A stretch of 34,884 nt of DNA from NCBI RefSeq assembly GCF_002162835.1, contig NZ_MAAX01000118.1, forward strand, positions 1 to 34,884, written 5' to 3'. Both the position numbers and the translations under genes were made by a program. Below are positions 4,168-23,305 of this stretch, in pieces; the stretch's first letter is position 1, and the number at the start of each line of letters is the position of its first letter. The stretch is from Nonlabens dokdonensis. Lineage in GTDB: Bacteria > Bacteroidota > Bacteroidia > Flavobacteriales > Flavobacteriaceae. Under the pieces are notes generated by a model. The model was given only the letters and a program-made list of their open reading frames with translations. It was not told the DNA's origin and did no database searches.

Positions 4168-7062
4168 ATGAAAAAACTACTCTTTTTAATCTTAATAATT
4201 TTTTACTCAAAAAACACCTGTGCTCAAACTGTTAATTTAAATAATCCAGATTTAGAATTATTTTTATTAAATAATGAAACAATTGATACCAATGGAGATG
4301 ATATCCCAGATACATTTATTGACTCAAATCGAAATAATGTCATAGAACAATCTGAAATAAGTTCTATTTCTAATTTATATTTAATTGAAGTTTTTTCTAG
4401 TTCTACCATTTATTCACTGAACGGTTTGGAATTTTTTACTCAATTGAATCATCTTGAAATTAGAAGAATGAAGTTGAATAATCCAGATTTTTCTTTATTT
4501 CAAAACTTAGAGTACCTTTTGTTAGATAGAGTAAGTGATCCTACCATTATAAATATTAATTCTAATACATTAGAAAAATTAGAGCTGATAAATATGAATC
4601 AACTAGATGTTCTTACTTTTCAGAATACACCATTGTTGGAAGATTTAAATCTGCACTCAAATTCTTCATTATTCACAAGATTAGATGTTTCGACGTTAAC
4701 ACAGTTAAAGTCTTTGCAATTAAATGCTACTTTTTTATCAAATCTTGATATAAATAGTAATATTAATTTGAAGTCACTTATAATAAATAAATTAGGATCT
4801 GTATTAGATTTAAGTAATAATAATCAAATTGAAACTCTTCATATTACTGCTGATCAATTTTATTCAAATATTCTCAATCATGTTCCCTTTCTAAAGGATT
4901 TTATCCTTTACGGTAATAATATCAACACACCGATAGCTAGCATAGATTTTTCTGCTAATTCTCTTTTACAAAAAATCTCAATTTTTTCAACATCGACAAT
5001 TACAAGTTTGAACTTATCAAATAATTTTTCACTTAATGATTTAGAGCTAAGTAACTTGATCAATCTAGTTAATCTAGACATTTCTGCACAAAATCAACTA
5101 AACAGATTAAAATTACGTACATTAGGTATTTTCTCATTAGACTTAACTAATAATACCGCAATTACAAATTTAGGTTTAAGCGATTTAAGTCTTAATTCTT
5201 CAGTAGATTTAAGTTCTTTGAATTACCTTGAGAATCTCTTTGTGGAAAATGTTTCAATTAGTGATTACAGTTTATTGACTAAACCATTTTTAAAAACTCT
5301 ATTTCTTAGAGAATTACATGTACCAACTTTAAGCTTCGATCTTAATTTTCAATTAGAGAAGGTAACTCTTTATCAAGTCACGTTACTTTCGACAAATTTA
5401 AGTATCAACAAACCTAATTTAGACTTCATCTCTATTTTTCATACTAATTTAACTGAGATTTCGTTGATGTCAAATGTTCCTGATTGGTCTTTTTTGATAT
5501 CTAATAATGATAATCTTACGAGTGTGTTTGTTAAAAATAATAGTATGGATCAAATACATGAACAATCTTGTTCATTACTTTGGAATGACAATTTATCTTA
5601 TGTTTGTACAGATGAAGCGGACATTGATTTACAAAATAACTTTCTTTCGTTATTTGGTTTTAACAATGTAAATGTAAACTCCTACTGCTCCTTCACACCA
5701 GGAGGAAATTTTAGCGAAATTCAAGGAGCTATTTCTATAGATACCGACAATAATGGTTGCGATCCAGCAGATCCTGTTTTTTCGAATTTCAATTTTACCG
5801 CAACAGATGGAACCCTATCAGGAAGTATTTCTAGTGATCAATCAGGGAATTATTATGTACCGGTAAGCGATGGTCAACATATCATTACTCCAAATCCTGA
5901 AAACCCAACCTACTGGAATTTCACTCCAGCAAACGTAGTGGTAGATTTCCCTACTCAAGCAAGTCCTTTCACGCAAGACTTTTGTGTAACTGCAAATGGC
6001 AGTATAGAAGATCTAGAAGTAATAGTAGTTCCACTAGAACAAGCAAGACCAGGATTTGATACAGATTATAAAGTAGTTGTTAAGAATAAAGGTAATGTAA
6101 CAACAAGTGGAACAGTAAATTTAGACTTCGAAGAAGACTTTATGAGTTTACTTTCCTCAGCGCCTACAGCTGCAATGCCAGCTTCAAATCAGTTGAGTTG
6201 GTCAGTAAGTAATTTACAGCCTTTCCAAATGAAAGAATATGAATTTACCATGACTTTAAATACGCCAACTCAAACTACCAATCCTTTAAATGGTGGTGAT
6301 CTTCTAACCTTTACAGGAACGGTAATAGGAACTGCAACAGACGCTATGCCTGCAGACAATACGATGGTATTTGATCAAACAGTTGTCAATTCTTATGACC
6401 CTAATGATAAAACTTGTCTAGAAGGAGAAACCATTACACCAGCAATGGTAGGTGAGTACGTTCATTACATGATCCGTTTTGAGAATACAGGATCTGCAAG
6501 TGCGGTAAATATTGTTGTAAAGGATGAAATCGATTTATCTCAGTTTGATATCACAACTTTGATTCCGTTAGGTGGTAGTCACGACTATTATACTCGTGTA
6601 AGAGATGGAAACGTGGTAGAATTTATTCATGAGAACATCAATCTCGATTTTAATGACGCAACTAACGATGGCTATGTGTTGTTTAAAATTAAAACACTTT
6701 CAACGCTATTAGAAGGTGATACTTTTGACAATTTGGCTGAAATTTATTTTGACTTTAACGCTCCAATCATCACAAACACCGAGACAGTTACAGTTATGAA
6801 TACAGCAAGTATAGCCGAAACTACAGATGCTTCTATTACCGTTTATCCTAATCCTGCCAGAGATTATATCCAGATCTCATCTAGCAATGGTCTTAAAAGT
6901 GCCTCAATTATAGATGTTAATGGTAGAATGCTTTCACAAACTAACTTTATAGGAAGCTTGATAGAGCAACGTATTTCTACTCAAAACTTAAATTCAGGAG
7001 TTTACTTTATTAGTATTCAAAGTGAAGTAGGGCAGAAGGTTGAGAAAGTGGTTGTAGAATAA
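4168..7062 (+). CDS. Secreted leucine-rich-like protein with T9SS sorting domain
   Basis: About 964 residues. I chose the ATG at 4168 (MKKLLFLILIIF signal peptide, cleavage near TCAQ) over an in-frame ATG nine bases upstream. Residues from about 50 to 500 are degenerate leucine-rich-like repeats of roughly 20-24 residues built on L-x-x-L-x-L-x-x-N (for example LKSLIINKLGSVLDLSNNN). Next come an SDR-like Asp-rich segment (IDTDNNGCDP) and a DUF11/DUF7619-like surface domain with SYDPNDKTCLEGETITP near residue 745. The last 75 residues form a type A T9SS C-terminal domain (SITVYPNPARDYIQI ... GVYFISI). Family knowledge implies export by the type IX system and display on or release from the cell surface. 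The role could be adhesion or polymer binding, but no catalytic domain was seen. It is AT-richer than its neighbours in the repeat part. Confidence 0.88.
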   Translation: MKKLLFLILIIFYSKNTCAQTVNLNNPDLELFLLNNETIDTNGDDIPDTFIDSNRNNVIEQSEISSISNLYLIEVFSSSTIYSLNGLEFFTQLNHLEIRRMKLNNPDFSLFQNLEYLLLDRVSDPTIININSNTLEKLELINMNQLDVLTFQNTPLLEDLNLHSNSSLFTRLDVSTLTQLKSLQLNATFLSNLDINSNINLKSLIINKLGSVLDLSNNNQIETLHITADQFYSNILNHVPFLKDFILYGNNINTPIASIDFSANSLLQKISIFSTSTITSLNLSNNFSLNDLELSNLINLVNLDISAQNQLNRLKLRTLGIFSLDLTNNTAITNLGLSDLSLNSSVDLSSLNYLENLFVENVSISDYSLLTKPFLKTLFLRELHVPTLSFDLNFQLEKVTLYQVTLLSTNLSINKPNLDFISIFHTNLTEISLMSNVPDWSFLISNNDNLTSVFVKNNSMDQIHEQSCSLLWNDNLSYVCTDEADIDLQNNFLSLFGFNNVNVNSYCSFTPGGNFSEIQGAISIDTDNNGCDPADPVFSNFNFTATDGTLSGSISSDQSGNYYVPVSDGQHIITPNPENPTYWNFTPANVVVDFPTQASPFTQDFCVTANGSIEDLEVIVVPLEQARPGFDTDYKVVVKNKGNVTTSGTVNLDFEEDFMSLLSSAPTAAMPASNQLSWSVSNLQPFQMKEYEFTMTLNTPTQTTNPLNGGDLLTFTGTVIGTATDAMPADNTMVFDQTVVNSYDPNDKTCLEGETITPAMVGEYVHYMIRFENTGSASAVNIVVKDEIDLSQFDITTLIPLGGSHDYYTRVRDGNVVEFIHENINLDFNDATNDGYVLFKIKTLSTLLEGDTFDNLAEIYFDFNAPIITNTETVTVMNTASIAETTDASITVYPNPARDYIQISSSNGLKSASIIDVNGRMLSQTNFIGSLIEQRISTQNLNSGVYFISIQSEVGQKVEKVVVE

Positions 7063-7085
7063 ATTACAAATAAAATTTTATTTAG

Positions 7086-7116
7086 AAAAAGCCTTTTCTC
7101 TTGAAGAGGCTTTTTT
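7086..7116. terminator. Terminator between convergent genes
   Basis: Arms AAAAAGCCT (7086-7094) and AGGCTTTTT (7107-7115) with a T tract on the + strand and an A tract before the left arm, so it can serve both the T9SS gene (+) and the WYL gene (-) that converge here. Confidence 0.8.
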
Positions 7117-7122
7117 ATGTTC

Positions 7123-7138
7123 CCCTTTCGCGAAAGCA
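7123..7138. repeat. Dispersed palindrome, copy 3 (degenerate ends)
   Basis: CCCTTTCGCGAAAGCA keeps the central CTTTCGCGAAAG and varies at the outer bases. It lies 7 nt past the terminator at 7086-7116. Confidence 0.8.
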
Positions 7139-7193
7139 TATGAAATCAAAAACTGGTTGCAACGTTTCTTATTAGTAATATAAAATGTAAGTA

Positions 7194-8216
7194 TTAGCTT
7201 TTAGCTTTACGATATACTTGTGCCGCAAGTTGGGTTTTTCTTTTAATGCGATGTCGTAAATTTCTAGGCTTTAAGATTTCAATAGATTCTCCAAAACCAA
7301 GAATCAATCGATCTAATTCAAAGTTTAAGCTTACAAAAATCTGGAAGGTAATACTACCGTCATCATTCTTAGAAAGGATTTTTTGAGAATGATGAAAAGG
7401 TTTTGTCATTACATAAGGCGCGTTCTTCTTGTCTAATTTGAAAACGACATAAGCAGTATTGTGATGGTCTAGAACAGTTACACCTATAGTGTTTTTGTAA
7501 TACTCTTCTGGATGAAACTCAGCATCCTGATAATCGATACTCAAATCGTAATCGATAGATATAATACGATCCAGAGCTAGCGTTTTAATTACAGGAGTAT
7601 TTTCATTAAGTCCTACAAGAAACCATCTATTATTATACTCTCTTAAAAATTGTGGATGAAACGTAAACTCTTGTGCGTCCCTAGCTTGAAAAGATTTGTA
7701 GGTGATGACTAGAACCACTTCCTTAAGAATAGCCTGATACAACTCATCTAAAAATTCTAAGCCTTTGAGTTTTTCATTTTTCTCTAGATATATAATGGGC
7801 GGTTTATTTTTTTTCTCGGTGTAAATTTTATCTTCCAGCTTATTGATAATTACATTAAGCTCGTCAAAGAATGAAAAATCTTTAAACTGTCGCAACATTT
7901 CCATAGTCTCAGTAAGTACAGTCATATCAGTTCCAGTTAGTGGAATATCGGTAATACTATAATCTGGATCACTATAACGGTAATATTTACGATCGTAAAC
8001 TTCAATCGGTGCGTTGTAACCCAATTTATCACTGCGCAAGTTTTGTATATCTAGCTGTACAGTACGTTTGCTAACATTTATATCTCGACCTTCTAAATCA
8101 TACAATGCCTGAGAACAATACTCTACTAAGTCGTCTAGAGTCCAGGTTCTATAGGTATTCTGTAAACAGCGATCTATAGTTTTATATCTTATGAGTGCAT
8201 TTTTATTAATAGCCAT
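7194..8216 (-). CDS. WYL-domain transcriptional regulator
   Basis: A 340-residue predicted DNA-binding regulator. The N-terminal ~80 residues form a helix-turn-helix region with the pattern seen in Bacteroidota WYL proteins (RYKTIDRCLQN, then VSKRTVQLDIQNLR). The WYL domain follows at about 155-250 with NRWFLVGLNENTPVIKTLALDRI. The C-terminal extension (about 255-335) includes FELDRLILGFGESIEIL, the usual WCX-like segment. WYL domains are ligand-sensing modules, in some studied members binding nucleic acids. The gene is divergent from rtcB across a 235-nt gap holding a perfect inverted repeat, so I infer that it regulates rtcB and itself. The ligand is unknown. Confidence 0.9.
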   Translation of the reverse strand: MAINKNALIRYKTIDRCLQNTYRTWTLDDLVEYCSQALYDLEGRDINVSKRTVQLDIQNLRSDKLGYNAPIEVYDRKYYRYSDPDYSITDIPLTGTDMTVLTETMEMLRQFKDFSFFDELNVIINKLEDKIYTEKKNKPPIIYLEKNEKLKGLEFLDELYQAILKEVVLVITYKSFQARDAQEFTFHPQFLREYNNRWFLVGLNENTPVIKTLALDRIISIDYDLSIDYQDAEFHPEEYYKNTIGVTVLDHHNTAYVVFKLDKKNAPYVMTKPFHHSQKILSKNDDGSITFQIFVSLNFELDRLILGFGESIEILKPRNLRHRIKRKTQLAAQVYRKAKS

Positions 8217-20537: not shown

Positions 20538-21749
20538 TTAAATTAATTTTGTGATCACTTGTGTTTCAGAATGTAGGGTTTTGTGTACTGGGCACTTGTC
20601 TGCTATTTGTAAAATACGTTGTAACTGCTTTTCACCTAAGTCACTCGTAATTTTTATACTTCTTATAAATGTATCGATTTTAGCGGCATCTTCTTCGCAG
20701 TTTTTACAATCTAGCGCATGTTGTTTGTCATAAGTAATATGACATTCTACATTTTGAATGATCCATTTTTTTCTTTTGGCGTACATCTGTATGGTCATAA
20801 CAGTACAAGCCGCAAGACCACTAGAAAGTAAATCATATGGTGTAGGCCCAAAATCATTACCGCCTACGCTTTCAGGTTCATCTGCGGTTATGTAATGCTT
20901 ACCAGCAACTATTTGCGTAGTGAACGCCTCTTCATTTCCTAAACTCGCTGCAACTTGATCTTCTGTTTTTATATCTTTTGTGTTTCCTTCAGGAACATAG
21001 CGTTTTGCCCAGCTCGCTATTACTTCACCTATATATTTTGAGTCTTCTTTATCGAGTAAAAGGTGATCTGCTCCATCGAGACTTACAAAGCTTTTAGGAT
21101 GTATAGCGGCATGATACAGTTTTTCGGCGTGCTGGATTCCTACTGTTGTATCTTGAGGTGAATGTGCGATTAAAATAGGTTTTCTTAATTCTTTAAGTGT
21201 TTTAGTTACTTCTTGCTCATTGATATTTCTAAGAAATTGTTCTTTTATTTTAAACGGCCGGCCGCTTAATTGAACCGTTGCTTCACCATTTTCAATAATT
21301 GCATCTACTTGATCGCCAAACAAATGACGCACATGTTTTGTATCACTAGGAGCGCCTATGGTTGCTACAGCTTTTATGGAACTCGCTTTCGCGGAAGCGA
21401 ATATAACAGCAGCACCGCCTAGACTATGCCCCATGAGTAGAGAAGGAGCTTTATAATTATCTTTTAAGTAGTCTATCGCAGCTAGTAAATCCTCTACGTT
21501 TCCTGAAAAGTTAGTATCAGCAAAATCACCGTCAGAATCACCTAATCCAGTAAAGTCAAATCTTAAAACACCATAGCCAGAAGTAGTTAATGCTCTGGTA
21601 ATGTTTTTTGTAGCGCTAAAGTTTTTACTGCAGGTAAAACAATGCGCAAAAATCGCATAGTTATGAGGTTGTCTATCGGCAGGTAATTCCATTCTACCAC
21701 TTAAGTCATATCCATTAGCGTTTTTAAAGCTTACTTTTTCAAAATTCAT
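20538..21749 (-). CDS. Bifunctional alpha/beta hydrolase - OsmC fusion
   Basis: 403 residues from the ATG at 21749; a GTG six bases upstream is possible but less likely. The N-terminal hydrolase (1-250) has nucleophile S109 (GHSLGGAA), acid D200 (HSPQDTTV) and H229 (DGADHLL). The C-terminal OsmC domain (275-403) has the peroxidatic C315 (LAACTVMTIQMYA) and resolving C386 (ADKCPVHKTL), typical of thiol-dependent organic hydroperoxide reductases. This fusion is known from Bacteroidota and proteobacteria; its substrate is not. A palindrome copy in the hydrolase part encodes ASAKAS (118-123) right after the nucleophile helix. Nearby sodC fits an oxidative-stress group. Confidence 0.92.
   Translation of the reverse strand: MNFEKVSFKNANGYDLSGRMELPADRQPHNYAIFAHCFTCSKNFSATKNITRALTTSGYGVLRFDFTGLGDSDGDFADTNFSGNVEDLLAAIDYLKDNYKAPSLLMGHSLGGAAVIFASAKASSIKAVATIGAPSDTKHVRHLFGDQVDAIIENGEATVQLSGRPFKIKEQFLRNINEQEVTKTLKELRKPILIAHSPQDTTVGIQHAEKLYHAAIHPKSFVSLDGADHLLLDKEDSKYIGEVIASWAKRYVPEGNTKDIKTEDQVAASLGNEEAFTTQIVAGKHYITADEPESVGGNDFGPTPYDLLSSGLAACTVMTIQMYAKRKKWIIQNVECHITYDKQHALDCKNCEEDAAKIDTFIRSIKITSDLGEKQLQRILQIADKCPVHKTLHSETQVITKLI
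21384..21399. repeat. Dispersed palindrome, copy 8 (inside hydrolase-OsmC gene)
   Basis: CGCTTTCGCGGAAGCG on the plus strand, one base from the consensus and identical to copy 5. Translated on the minus strand in codon phase 3, giving ASAKAS. Confidence 0.92.
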
Positions 21750-21871
21750 AAACACTTATTTTCTTTAAAAGTAAAATGTTTTTATCACAGTAGTATCAAT
21801 ATGAGTAATAATTCAGCTTTCTTACTTAATTCATTATAGATTCTATATTTTTACCGTAATAAATCATACCT

Positions 21872-22402
21872 ATGAATAAAATATTTTTTTTACTAGCTTT
21901 TAGTTTGGTTTCTTGCTTTAGTTCTAATGATAATAAAACTCCAGAAGAGCTGCAAAAAGAACAACTCACTACATTTTATTTTATACGTCATGCAGAGAAG
22001 ATGACAGATCAAGGTAGCGATCCAGAACTTACTGAAAAAGGAAAAGCTAGAGCAAATGATTGGGTAAATTACTTCTTTTTAAAAGATGTAGATCATGTAA
22101 TATCTTCTGATTTTAAAAGAACAAAAGCTACAGCTGCACCACTTGCAAAGTCTAAGAAGTTAGAAATAGAACTTTACGATGTGAGAAAAGCTACAGGTAA
22201 ATCATTATTAGAAAAGTATAGAGGTAAGACCGTTGCTTTATTTGGCCACAGTAATACGATTAATAAATATGCAAACGCATTGCAAAAGGATAGCATCTAT
22301 AACGACTTAGAAGATTCTGATTATGATCATTTCTTTGTTGTACGTATAGATAAAGATGGTAATTCTAGTGCAGTTAAGGAGGCAATGGGCTTTCAGGAAT
22401 AA
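21872..22402 (+). CDS. SixA-like histidine phosphatase lipoprotein
   Basis: 176 residues: SPII signal MNKIFFLLAFSLVSC (C15), then a histidine phosphatase fold. Catalytic parts are FIRHAEK (R39, H40), the second arginine in SSDFKRTKATAAP (R83) and the second histidine in FGHSNTINKY (H126). Small size and motif spacing fit the SixA/short PGM branch. Anchored outside the cytoplasm, it would dephosphorylate an extracytoplasmic substrate, unknown here. It is followed 18 nt later by the EEP-VF530 gene on the same strand. Confidence 0.9.
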   Translation: MNKIFFLLAFSLVSCFSSNDNKTPEELQKEQLTTFYFIRHAEKMTDQGSDPELTEKGKARANDWVNYFFLKDVDHVISSDFKRTKATAAPLAKSKKLEIELYDVRKATGKSLLEKYRGKTVALFGHSNTINKYANALQKDSIYNDLEDSDYDHFFVVRIDKDGNSSAVKEAMGFQE

Positions 22403-22420
22403 AGTAACACATAGCAATAA

Positions 22421-23305
22421 ATGAAATTACTAAGCTGGAATATGAATCGCCATGATGGTGATCAAGAAAACTTATCTCATAGTACGTTCAAAGAACTTAT
22501 CCTAGAGCACGATGCTGATGTAGTTATTCTAACACATACTAATTTGAACTTTCAGTTAGACGGGATCTATAAAAGAATCACTACTCAAGAAATGCCATTG
22601 CGTCACGATGGTATCGATTATAAAGAAGGTGAAAACAGAGTCAGTATATATACCAAATATCCCTTAAAGAATAAGGTCAAAACTTATGATGACCATAATA
22701 GCATATGCCAGATGCTGGATACGCCTTTAGGCAACCTGAATATCTATGGAACTGTAATAGGTGCAAATAAAGAGCTTTTTGAGTCAGATTTACTGGAGCA
22801 AAAAGATGATTTAGAACGTATTCAAGGTGCTATTTGCTATGTAGGTGATTACCAGATGTCTTTTGTAAAACCTTATTTGCCTAATGAAGAAAAAGTAATG
22901 GATATGCAAGCCTTTGCAGATTCTCAAAAAATGGCCATCCTCACTGCCGACTTTGAAAATCTCATGAGCCATGTGATGATTAGCAAATCGTTCTTGAAAG
23001 GGAATACCACAAAACTTGATCTATTTGAAGTTCCATCTCACATTTCTAATAAAGAAATCATAGTTGTAGAGATCAAAGAAAAGGAAATTAAAAAACAAGT
23101 AAATAATCCGCTACATGGTGTGAAGCTAGCCTATATGCTAGAAAAGTTAGTAGATCATTACGGCTGGAATGAACTGGGCGATCTCATCAGGATCAATTCC
23201 TTCAATTCAAACCCAGGATTCAAATCAAGTTTAAAGTTTTTACGCAAAACTGATTGGGCTAGGAAGAAGGTGGAGGATTTATATGTAGAGACTTTTATAG
23301 ACTAA
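22421..23305 (+). CDS. EEP-like protein fused to C-terminal VF530 (DUF2132) domain
   Basis: 294 residues, no signal peptide. The last 67 residues (228-294) match VF530/DUF2132, normally a stand-alone ~75-residue DNA-binding protein: [51 protein letters not shown]. The first ~220 resemble an endonuclease/exonuclease/phosphatase fold by its opening [10 protein letters not shown], the [12 protein letters not shown] strand and GDYQM (near residue 142). The usual metal-binding Glu (QE after the second strand) reads THTN here and the final DH motif reads SH, so catalysis may be lost. Nucleic-acid binding is likely; the activity is open. It follows the SixA-like gene closely. Confidence 0.72.

Follow-up and report, generated by a model that had tools for sequence, protein, structure and literature searches.

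The closest described counterparts of the gene analysed here belong to two families. The endonuclease/exonuclease/phosphatase (EEP) superfamily includes the catalytic enzymes ExoIII, NExo, TDP2, APE1 and LINE-1 endonuclease, and, nearest to our protein, four stand-alone proteins of 223-227 aa from Chryseobacterium and Flavobacterium (L053-L056), which are unfused and carry an intact Glu39, GDFN and SDH, with Ile in place of Asp183. We take the catalytic roles of the EEP motif residues to be those assigned in ExoIII and APE1. The second family, VF530 (PF09905, DUF2132; PDB 2jvw), usually takes the form of small stand-alone proteins, a form that is not strictly defining, and we presume its putative nucleic-acid binding from the family name only. 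In the paper library covered by our literature search, nothing was found on VF530 or 2JVW and DUF2132 occurred in passing mentions only; the same library yielded nothing on EEP pseudoenzymes, and for inactive EEP proteins a Plasmodium match only.

In Nonlabens dokdonensis, both domains reside in one gene. The stretch of DNA in question (the window; 34,884 nucleotides of contig NZ_MAAX01000118.1) contains at 22421..23305, on the + strand, a single ORF with an ATG start coding for 294 aa. Its EEP-fold domain (residues 1-218, extending to about 222; 22421..23074, +) is connected by the linker KEKEIKKQV (residues 219-227; 23075..23101, +), nearly invariant in the alignment of six fusions, to a C-terminal VF530 domain (residues 228-289; 23102..23287, +). 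The sequence-only reading had proposed such a combination, and separate profile matches for both halves bear it out: PF09905 is matched over its full length (positions 2-63 of 63) with E 5.4e-31 and 107 bits against a cut-off of 27, and Exo_endo_phos (PF03372) on residues 4-112 with E 1.4e-6 and 28.7 bits, above its cut-off of 24.5, the fusion L052 falling just below the latter at 22.5 bits. Among solved structures, the VF530 protein 2jvw is the only clear sequence match of the window protein (E 1.9e-22). The AlphaFold2 model of the EEP part has ten-residue blocks at pLDDT 87-97, with one exception at 60, and that of the VF530 part, which is covered by three alignment rows, has pLDDT 43-69. 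Compared with LINE-1 endonuclease, TDP2, ExoIII, NExo and APE1, the EEP model gave, among the matches listed, Z of 19.4-21.2 and rmsd of 2.5-3.2 over 193-209 residues, so that an EEP fold is present in the model of residues 1-220 and membership in the superfamily follows from profile score and predicted fold together. Unlike those enzymes, to which identity is 10-16% among the matches listed, the fusions lack the catalytic Glu, Asp and His. GC content is 35% in the EEP part, 38% in the VF530 part and 34% in the whole window. The window protein has no NCBIfam match and thus does not represent an already catalogued two-domain family; two further fusions were scanned as well, of which L005 gave no match and L052 a single weak one, far below its cut-off. 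The fusion is not an assembly error, since it recurs at full length and without internal stops in five further genomes of Nonlabens, of which G002, G005 and G010 are single-contig assemblies.

We determined how fused and stand-alone VF530 are distributed. Six of the 23 Nonlabens genomes contain the fusion and 16 a stand-alone VF530, so that 22 have exactly one VF530 match each, in one form or the other and never both; the sole genome without a match is 77% complete. Identity to the window protein is 94, 77, 76, 70 and 69% for the five other fusions. Their EEP domain is full length in every case, as it is in the window, and an intact EEP protein used as query across the genus found the same six places and no others. 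In a draw of 395 genomes from the phylum, VF530 occurs in 127 genomes at 129 places, one of which, that of the window, is fused; unlike this C-terminus of a 294-aa protein, the other 128 are located in open frames of at most 154 aa. An EEP search of 397 genomes from the family returned three Nonlabens fusions, including that of the window, and two weak matches not fused to VF530 (G002, G005 and G010 are evidently outside this draw), and a profile search of 395 phylum genomes at E 1e-20 returned four genomes, with open frames of 226, 294 (the window), 272 and 270 aa. A genome-contig scan with two short peptide patterns yielded 68 EEP loci; it was non-exhaustive, and since four of the six fusions escaped it (L051 and L052, the two recovered, lie on contigs equal in length to those of L004 and L003), its silence elsewhere is weak. 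No EEP-VF530 fusion outside Nonlabens was found in the 397 family genomes, the 395 phylum genomes or the 68 scan loci. In these searches the fusion, a new arrangement of known domains, is thus not widespread and was seen in a single genus only.

The EEP part has lost key catalytic residues. For comparison we used 57 relatives, obtained from 70 EEP rows (the 68 loci plus P0002 and P0003) by leaving out 13: L051 and L052, which are fusions already present, the weak and distant L115 and L118, and nine shorter than 200 aa. The 57 include one identical pair (L059, P0002) and several rows with catalytic-site departures or apparent damage near the C-terminus (L073, L074, L085, L106, L117). Four motifs in the profile of intact relatives, (L)QE, GDFN, IDH and SDH, could be aligned with solved NExo, where GDFN, IDH and SDH individually gave only weak matches; with Bacillus ExoA, (L)QE and GDFN could be aligned. 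The metal-binding Glu39 is present in 57/57 relatives and 0/6 fusions, which have Asn (four) or His (two), the window protein reading THT (codon 39, 22535..22537, +); the (Q/T)E motif is accordingly absent from all six. Asp183 is found in 51/57 relatives and in no fusion, being replaced by Ser, Asn or His in two each (Ser in the SHV of the window; 22967..22969, +). At codons 210-211 (23048..23053, +), where the catalytic Asp-His has become Asn-Lys in the window, Asp210 is retained in 53/57 relatives and 2/6 fusions and His211 in 54/57 and 0/6, the fusions having Asp, Glu or Asn followed by Gln, Glu or Lys, two each. As a result, the C-terminal SDH motif reads SNK in the window protein and L002, and SEE and SDQ in the other fusions. 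At codons 143-145 (D-Y-Q; 22847..22855, +), Asp143 is kept in 55/57 relatives and 6/6 fusions, and Asn145 in 55/57 and 4/6; Gln replaces it in the window protein and L002 (GDYQ), leaving GD(F/L/Y/W)N in the other four. Asn7 is retained in all relatives and fusions aligned. The degraded motifs perceived by the sequence-only reading (THTN for the Glu, SH for DH) are therefore genuine, and the degradation extends to Asn145 and to Asp210-His211.

Judging from these alignments, EEP catalysis is very probably gone in the fusions: with Glu39 and His211 present in 0/6 and universal or nearly so in relatives, the catalytically dead protein that the sequence-only reading had offered as one option is well supported. 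Its other option was a DNA-targeted nuclease with altered chemistry. An enzyme of this kind, a nuclease or phosphodiesterase directed by VF530 in which His39 or Asn39 would serve as a metal ligand, would be in line with the EEP fold remaining intact in the model and with Asn7, Arg73, Tyr109, Asp143 and His184 of the old pocket being invariant across the six fusions. However, none of the six retains Glu39, Asp183 or His211, some lack Asp210 or Asn145 as well, and the replacements are lineage-specific (N/H, S/N/H, Q/E/K, D/E/N and N/Q, respectively, for positions 39, 183, 211, 210 and 145). A new conserved active site is not indicated, because each lost site differs between lineages, and we regard altered chemistry as very unlikely; the invariant pocket residues do leave room for residual ligand binding or weak activity. 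The decay looks stepwise, since the sister clade L053-L056 has Ile183 yet keeps Glu39, GDFN and SDH: Asp183 would have gone first, Glu39 and His211 next, and Asp210 and Asn145 last.

Despite the probable loss of catalysis, the domain is under purifying selection. In three close pairs of fusions, EEP dN/dS was 0.078 (bootstrap range 0.037-0.141), 0.116 (0.047-0.215) and 0.081 (0.044-0.136), more distant pairs being near or past silent-site saturation, and four pairs of intact relatives gave 0.135, 0.103, 0.295 and 0.246. The values in fusions are no higher than those in intact relatives, and the domain is therefore constrained no less. The relatives share 57 positions at a conservation of 85% or more; all six fusions keep 33 of these and all six have lost 14, the other 10 being partly kept. 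Another 60 EEP positions do not vary among the fusions but occur in fewer than 25% of relatives; much of this invariance may reflect shared ancestry and not new constraint. The fusion sample comprises six sequences of a single genus, which form three closely related pairs. Variable positions number 103 of 222, and the stretches conserved among fusions include MP-RHDGI, ADFEN and a further one of 10 residues. The L003-L004 pair has diverged at silent sites by 0.23 in its EEP part and by 1.16 in its VF530 part (67 codons), which suggests within-gene recombination or a small-sample effect.

These data bear on whether the EEP part could be a folded but inert appendage, i.e. a fusion fixed by chance in which catalysis decayed and selection merely prevents misfolding harmful to VF530. 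As this explanation would have it, the five catalytic positions that are lost or drifting all differ between fusions (chance 0.02, the positions having been chosen after the fact), and the branch leading to the fusions in the EEP tree is long (0.89). It is at odds with an EEP dN/dS not above that of intact EEP proteins, with conserved stretches such as MP-RHDGI and ADFEN, and with the full length of the domain in 6/6 fusions, and we consider it unlikely, although purifying selection on the EEP part could be preserving mere solubility.

We sought to trace the origin of the fusion from trees and gene order. In the VF530 tree, the fused VF530s group together (100/98) and are nested within the clade of Nonlabens VF530s (96/93); the tree was built on 66 columns, and 4 of its 28 inner branches are strong. 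In the EEP tree, the fusions form one clade (100/100) that is grouped with L053-L056 (100/99), which are 31-36% identical to the window protein. Because the fused VF530s nest among those of Nonlabens, the fusion most likely formed once within this genus. The EEP source family is scattered over Bacteroidota, Bacillota, Acidobacteriota and Methanobacteriota and consists mostly of stand-alone proteins of about 220 residues (68 loci, two of them fusions). Two unfused relatives are plasmid-borne and others occur in scattered phyla, which, together with the shortness of the VF530 alignment, would be compatible with a ready-made fused gene having arrived by horizontal transfer and displaced the local VF530; the nesting of fused VF530 in the Nonlabens clade and the above searches, none of which found the fusion outside the genus, make such an arrival highly improbable. 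We also considered a phage or defence origin and rejected it: no relative was confirmed among viral contigs, and no PADLOC model matched the window protein (P0001), P0002, P0003 or L053 at E 0.01 or better.

Several EEP relatives have surroundings or architectures worth noting. In the Chryseobacterium loci L053, L055 and L056 (about 5374-7670), the intact EEP gene lies between genes for a glutamine amidotransferase and a Glycos_transf_3 protein and overlaps the latter by 4 bases; the flanks read as trpG and trpD, followed by further trp genes (by Pfam for L053, by eye for the others). A 455-aa EEP-family protein at L031:928-2295 combines an HNH endonuclease domain with an EEP domain having intact motifs, and it matches the PADLOC PtuB and PDC-M01B models mostly through its HNH part. 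The Selenomonas plasmid pSRC2 (L034:8001-9350) codes for an intact EEP protein of 449 aa, L066 and L068 being equally long, in which the C-terminal part of about 215 residues has no Pfam match (P0003 was scanned).

Gene order at the locus is shared across the genus. Upstream of the fusion, at 21872..22402 (+), is a gene for a histidine-phosphatase-family putative lipoprotein (His_Phos_1, E 6.4e-13; lipobox LVSC by eye), and 21 of the 22 VF530 loci of Nonlabens (15/16 stand-alone, 6/6 fusion) have this gene on their 5′ side. The exception is L016, an assembly 78% complete, with no trace of it in the sequence examined. In 14 of the 15 stand-alone loci having it, the phosphatase-family gene directly adjoins VF530, from a 1-base overlap to a distance of 9 bases (L017 has an intervening gene), and in the fusion loci it is 18, 18, 55, 54, 225 and 224 bases away from the fusion. 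A phosphatase tree of 20 rows, which leaves out L015 and L016, groups the fusion genomes weakly (84/89). Of the likely operon with a SixA-like phosphatase, suggested earlier, the pairing is genus-wide and the His_Phos_1 domain is present; “SixA-like” is a loose label, because the SixA model (TIGR00249) scores 19 bits against an NCBIfam cut-off of 74.5 and the start of the protein is lipoprotein-like. To judge from that start, the neighbour probably leaves the cytoplasm; as it looks exported, a common biochemical pathway with VF530 is doubtful, and the link between the two may be one of position only. Beyond it, on the − strand at 20538-21755, is a 405-aa frame with a GTG start that, to the eye, looks like an alpha/beta hydrolase fused with an OsmC-like domain. 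Synteny and trees together suggest that a stand-alone EEP gene, kin to those of Chryseobacterium and Flavobacterium, was inserted between the phosphatase-family and VF530 genes in one event inside Nonlabens, its reading frame becoming continuous with that of VF530 at the latter's 5′ end. The alignment shows that the key catalytic residues had disappeared by the time the six lineages diverged and that these sites have kept changing since.

As to what the fused protein does, VF530 is probably made solely within the fusion, since there is no Met at the domain border: none occurs in residues 214-238 of any of the six fusions. A separate VF530 from an internal start is therefore unlikely, although Met213 in L005 and L006 and a GTG at codon 234 in the window fusion are possible starts. 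The EEP part is acidic: its net charge ranges from -10 to -16 across the six fusions, whereas the 57 relatives have a median of -5 and four of them are at -10 or lower. This speaks against an additional surface for gripping DNA; the candidate roles that remain are to bind a protein, to retain some binding of nucleotide or phosphate, or to shield VF530. One version of the last would be a dead acidic EEP domain acting as a built-in nucleic-acid mimic, or lid, which competes for VF530 and gates it, i.e. a self-inhibitor made from a pseudo-nuclease, whose catalytic decay would be visible step by step in a single genus; we rate this specific scenario as improbable.

The best explanation, and in our judgement a likely one, is that the EEP domain is a conserved pseudoenzyme serving as a non-catalytic accessory module of VF530. 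It is kept by purifying selection and is therefore most likely working in that capacity; its retention, the missing border Met and the lack of a second VF530 in fusion genomes all favour this reading. Such a pseudoenzyme domain would add to VF530 a further surface, able to bind a protein partner or a ligand, and would thereby tune where or when VF530 acts. The fusion also gives a point of entry to the study of VF530, a small, widespread family with scant literature in the search made. Together, the intact stand-alone relatives, the unfused ancestral locus in sister species, and the six fusions, which have lost catalytic residues to differing degrees while purifying selection acts on them, constitute a natural series of pseudoenzyme birth via gene fusion, within one genus and its relatives.
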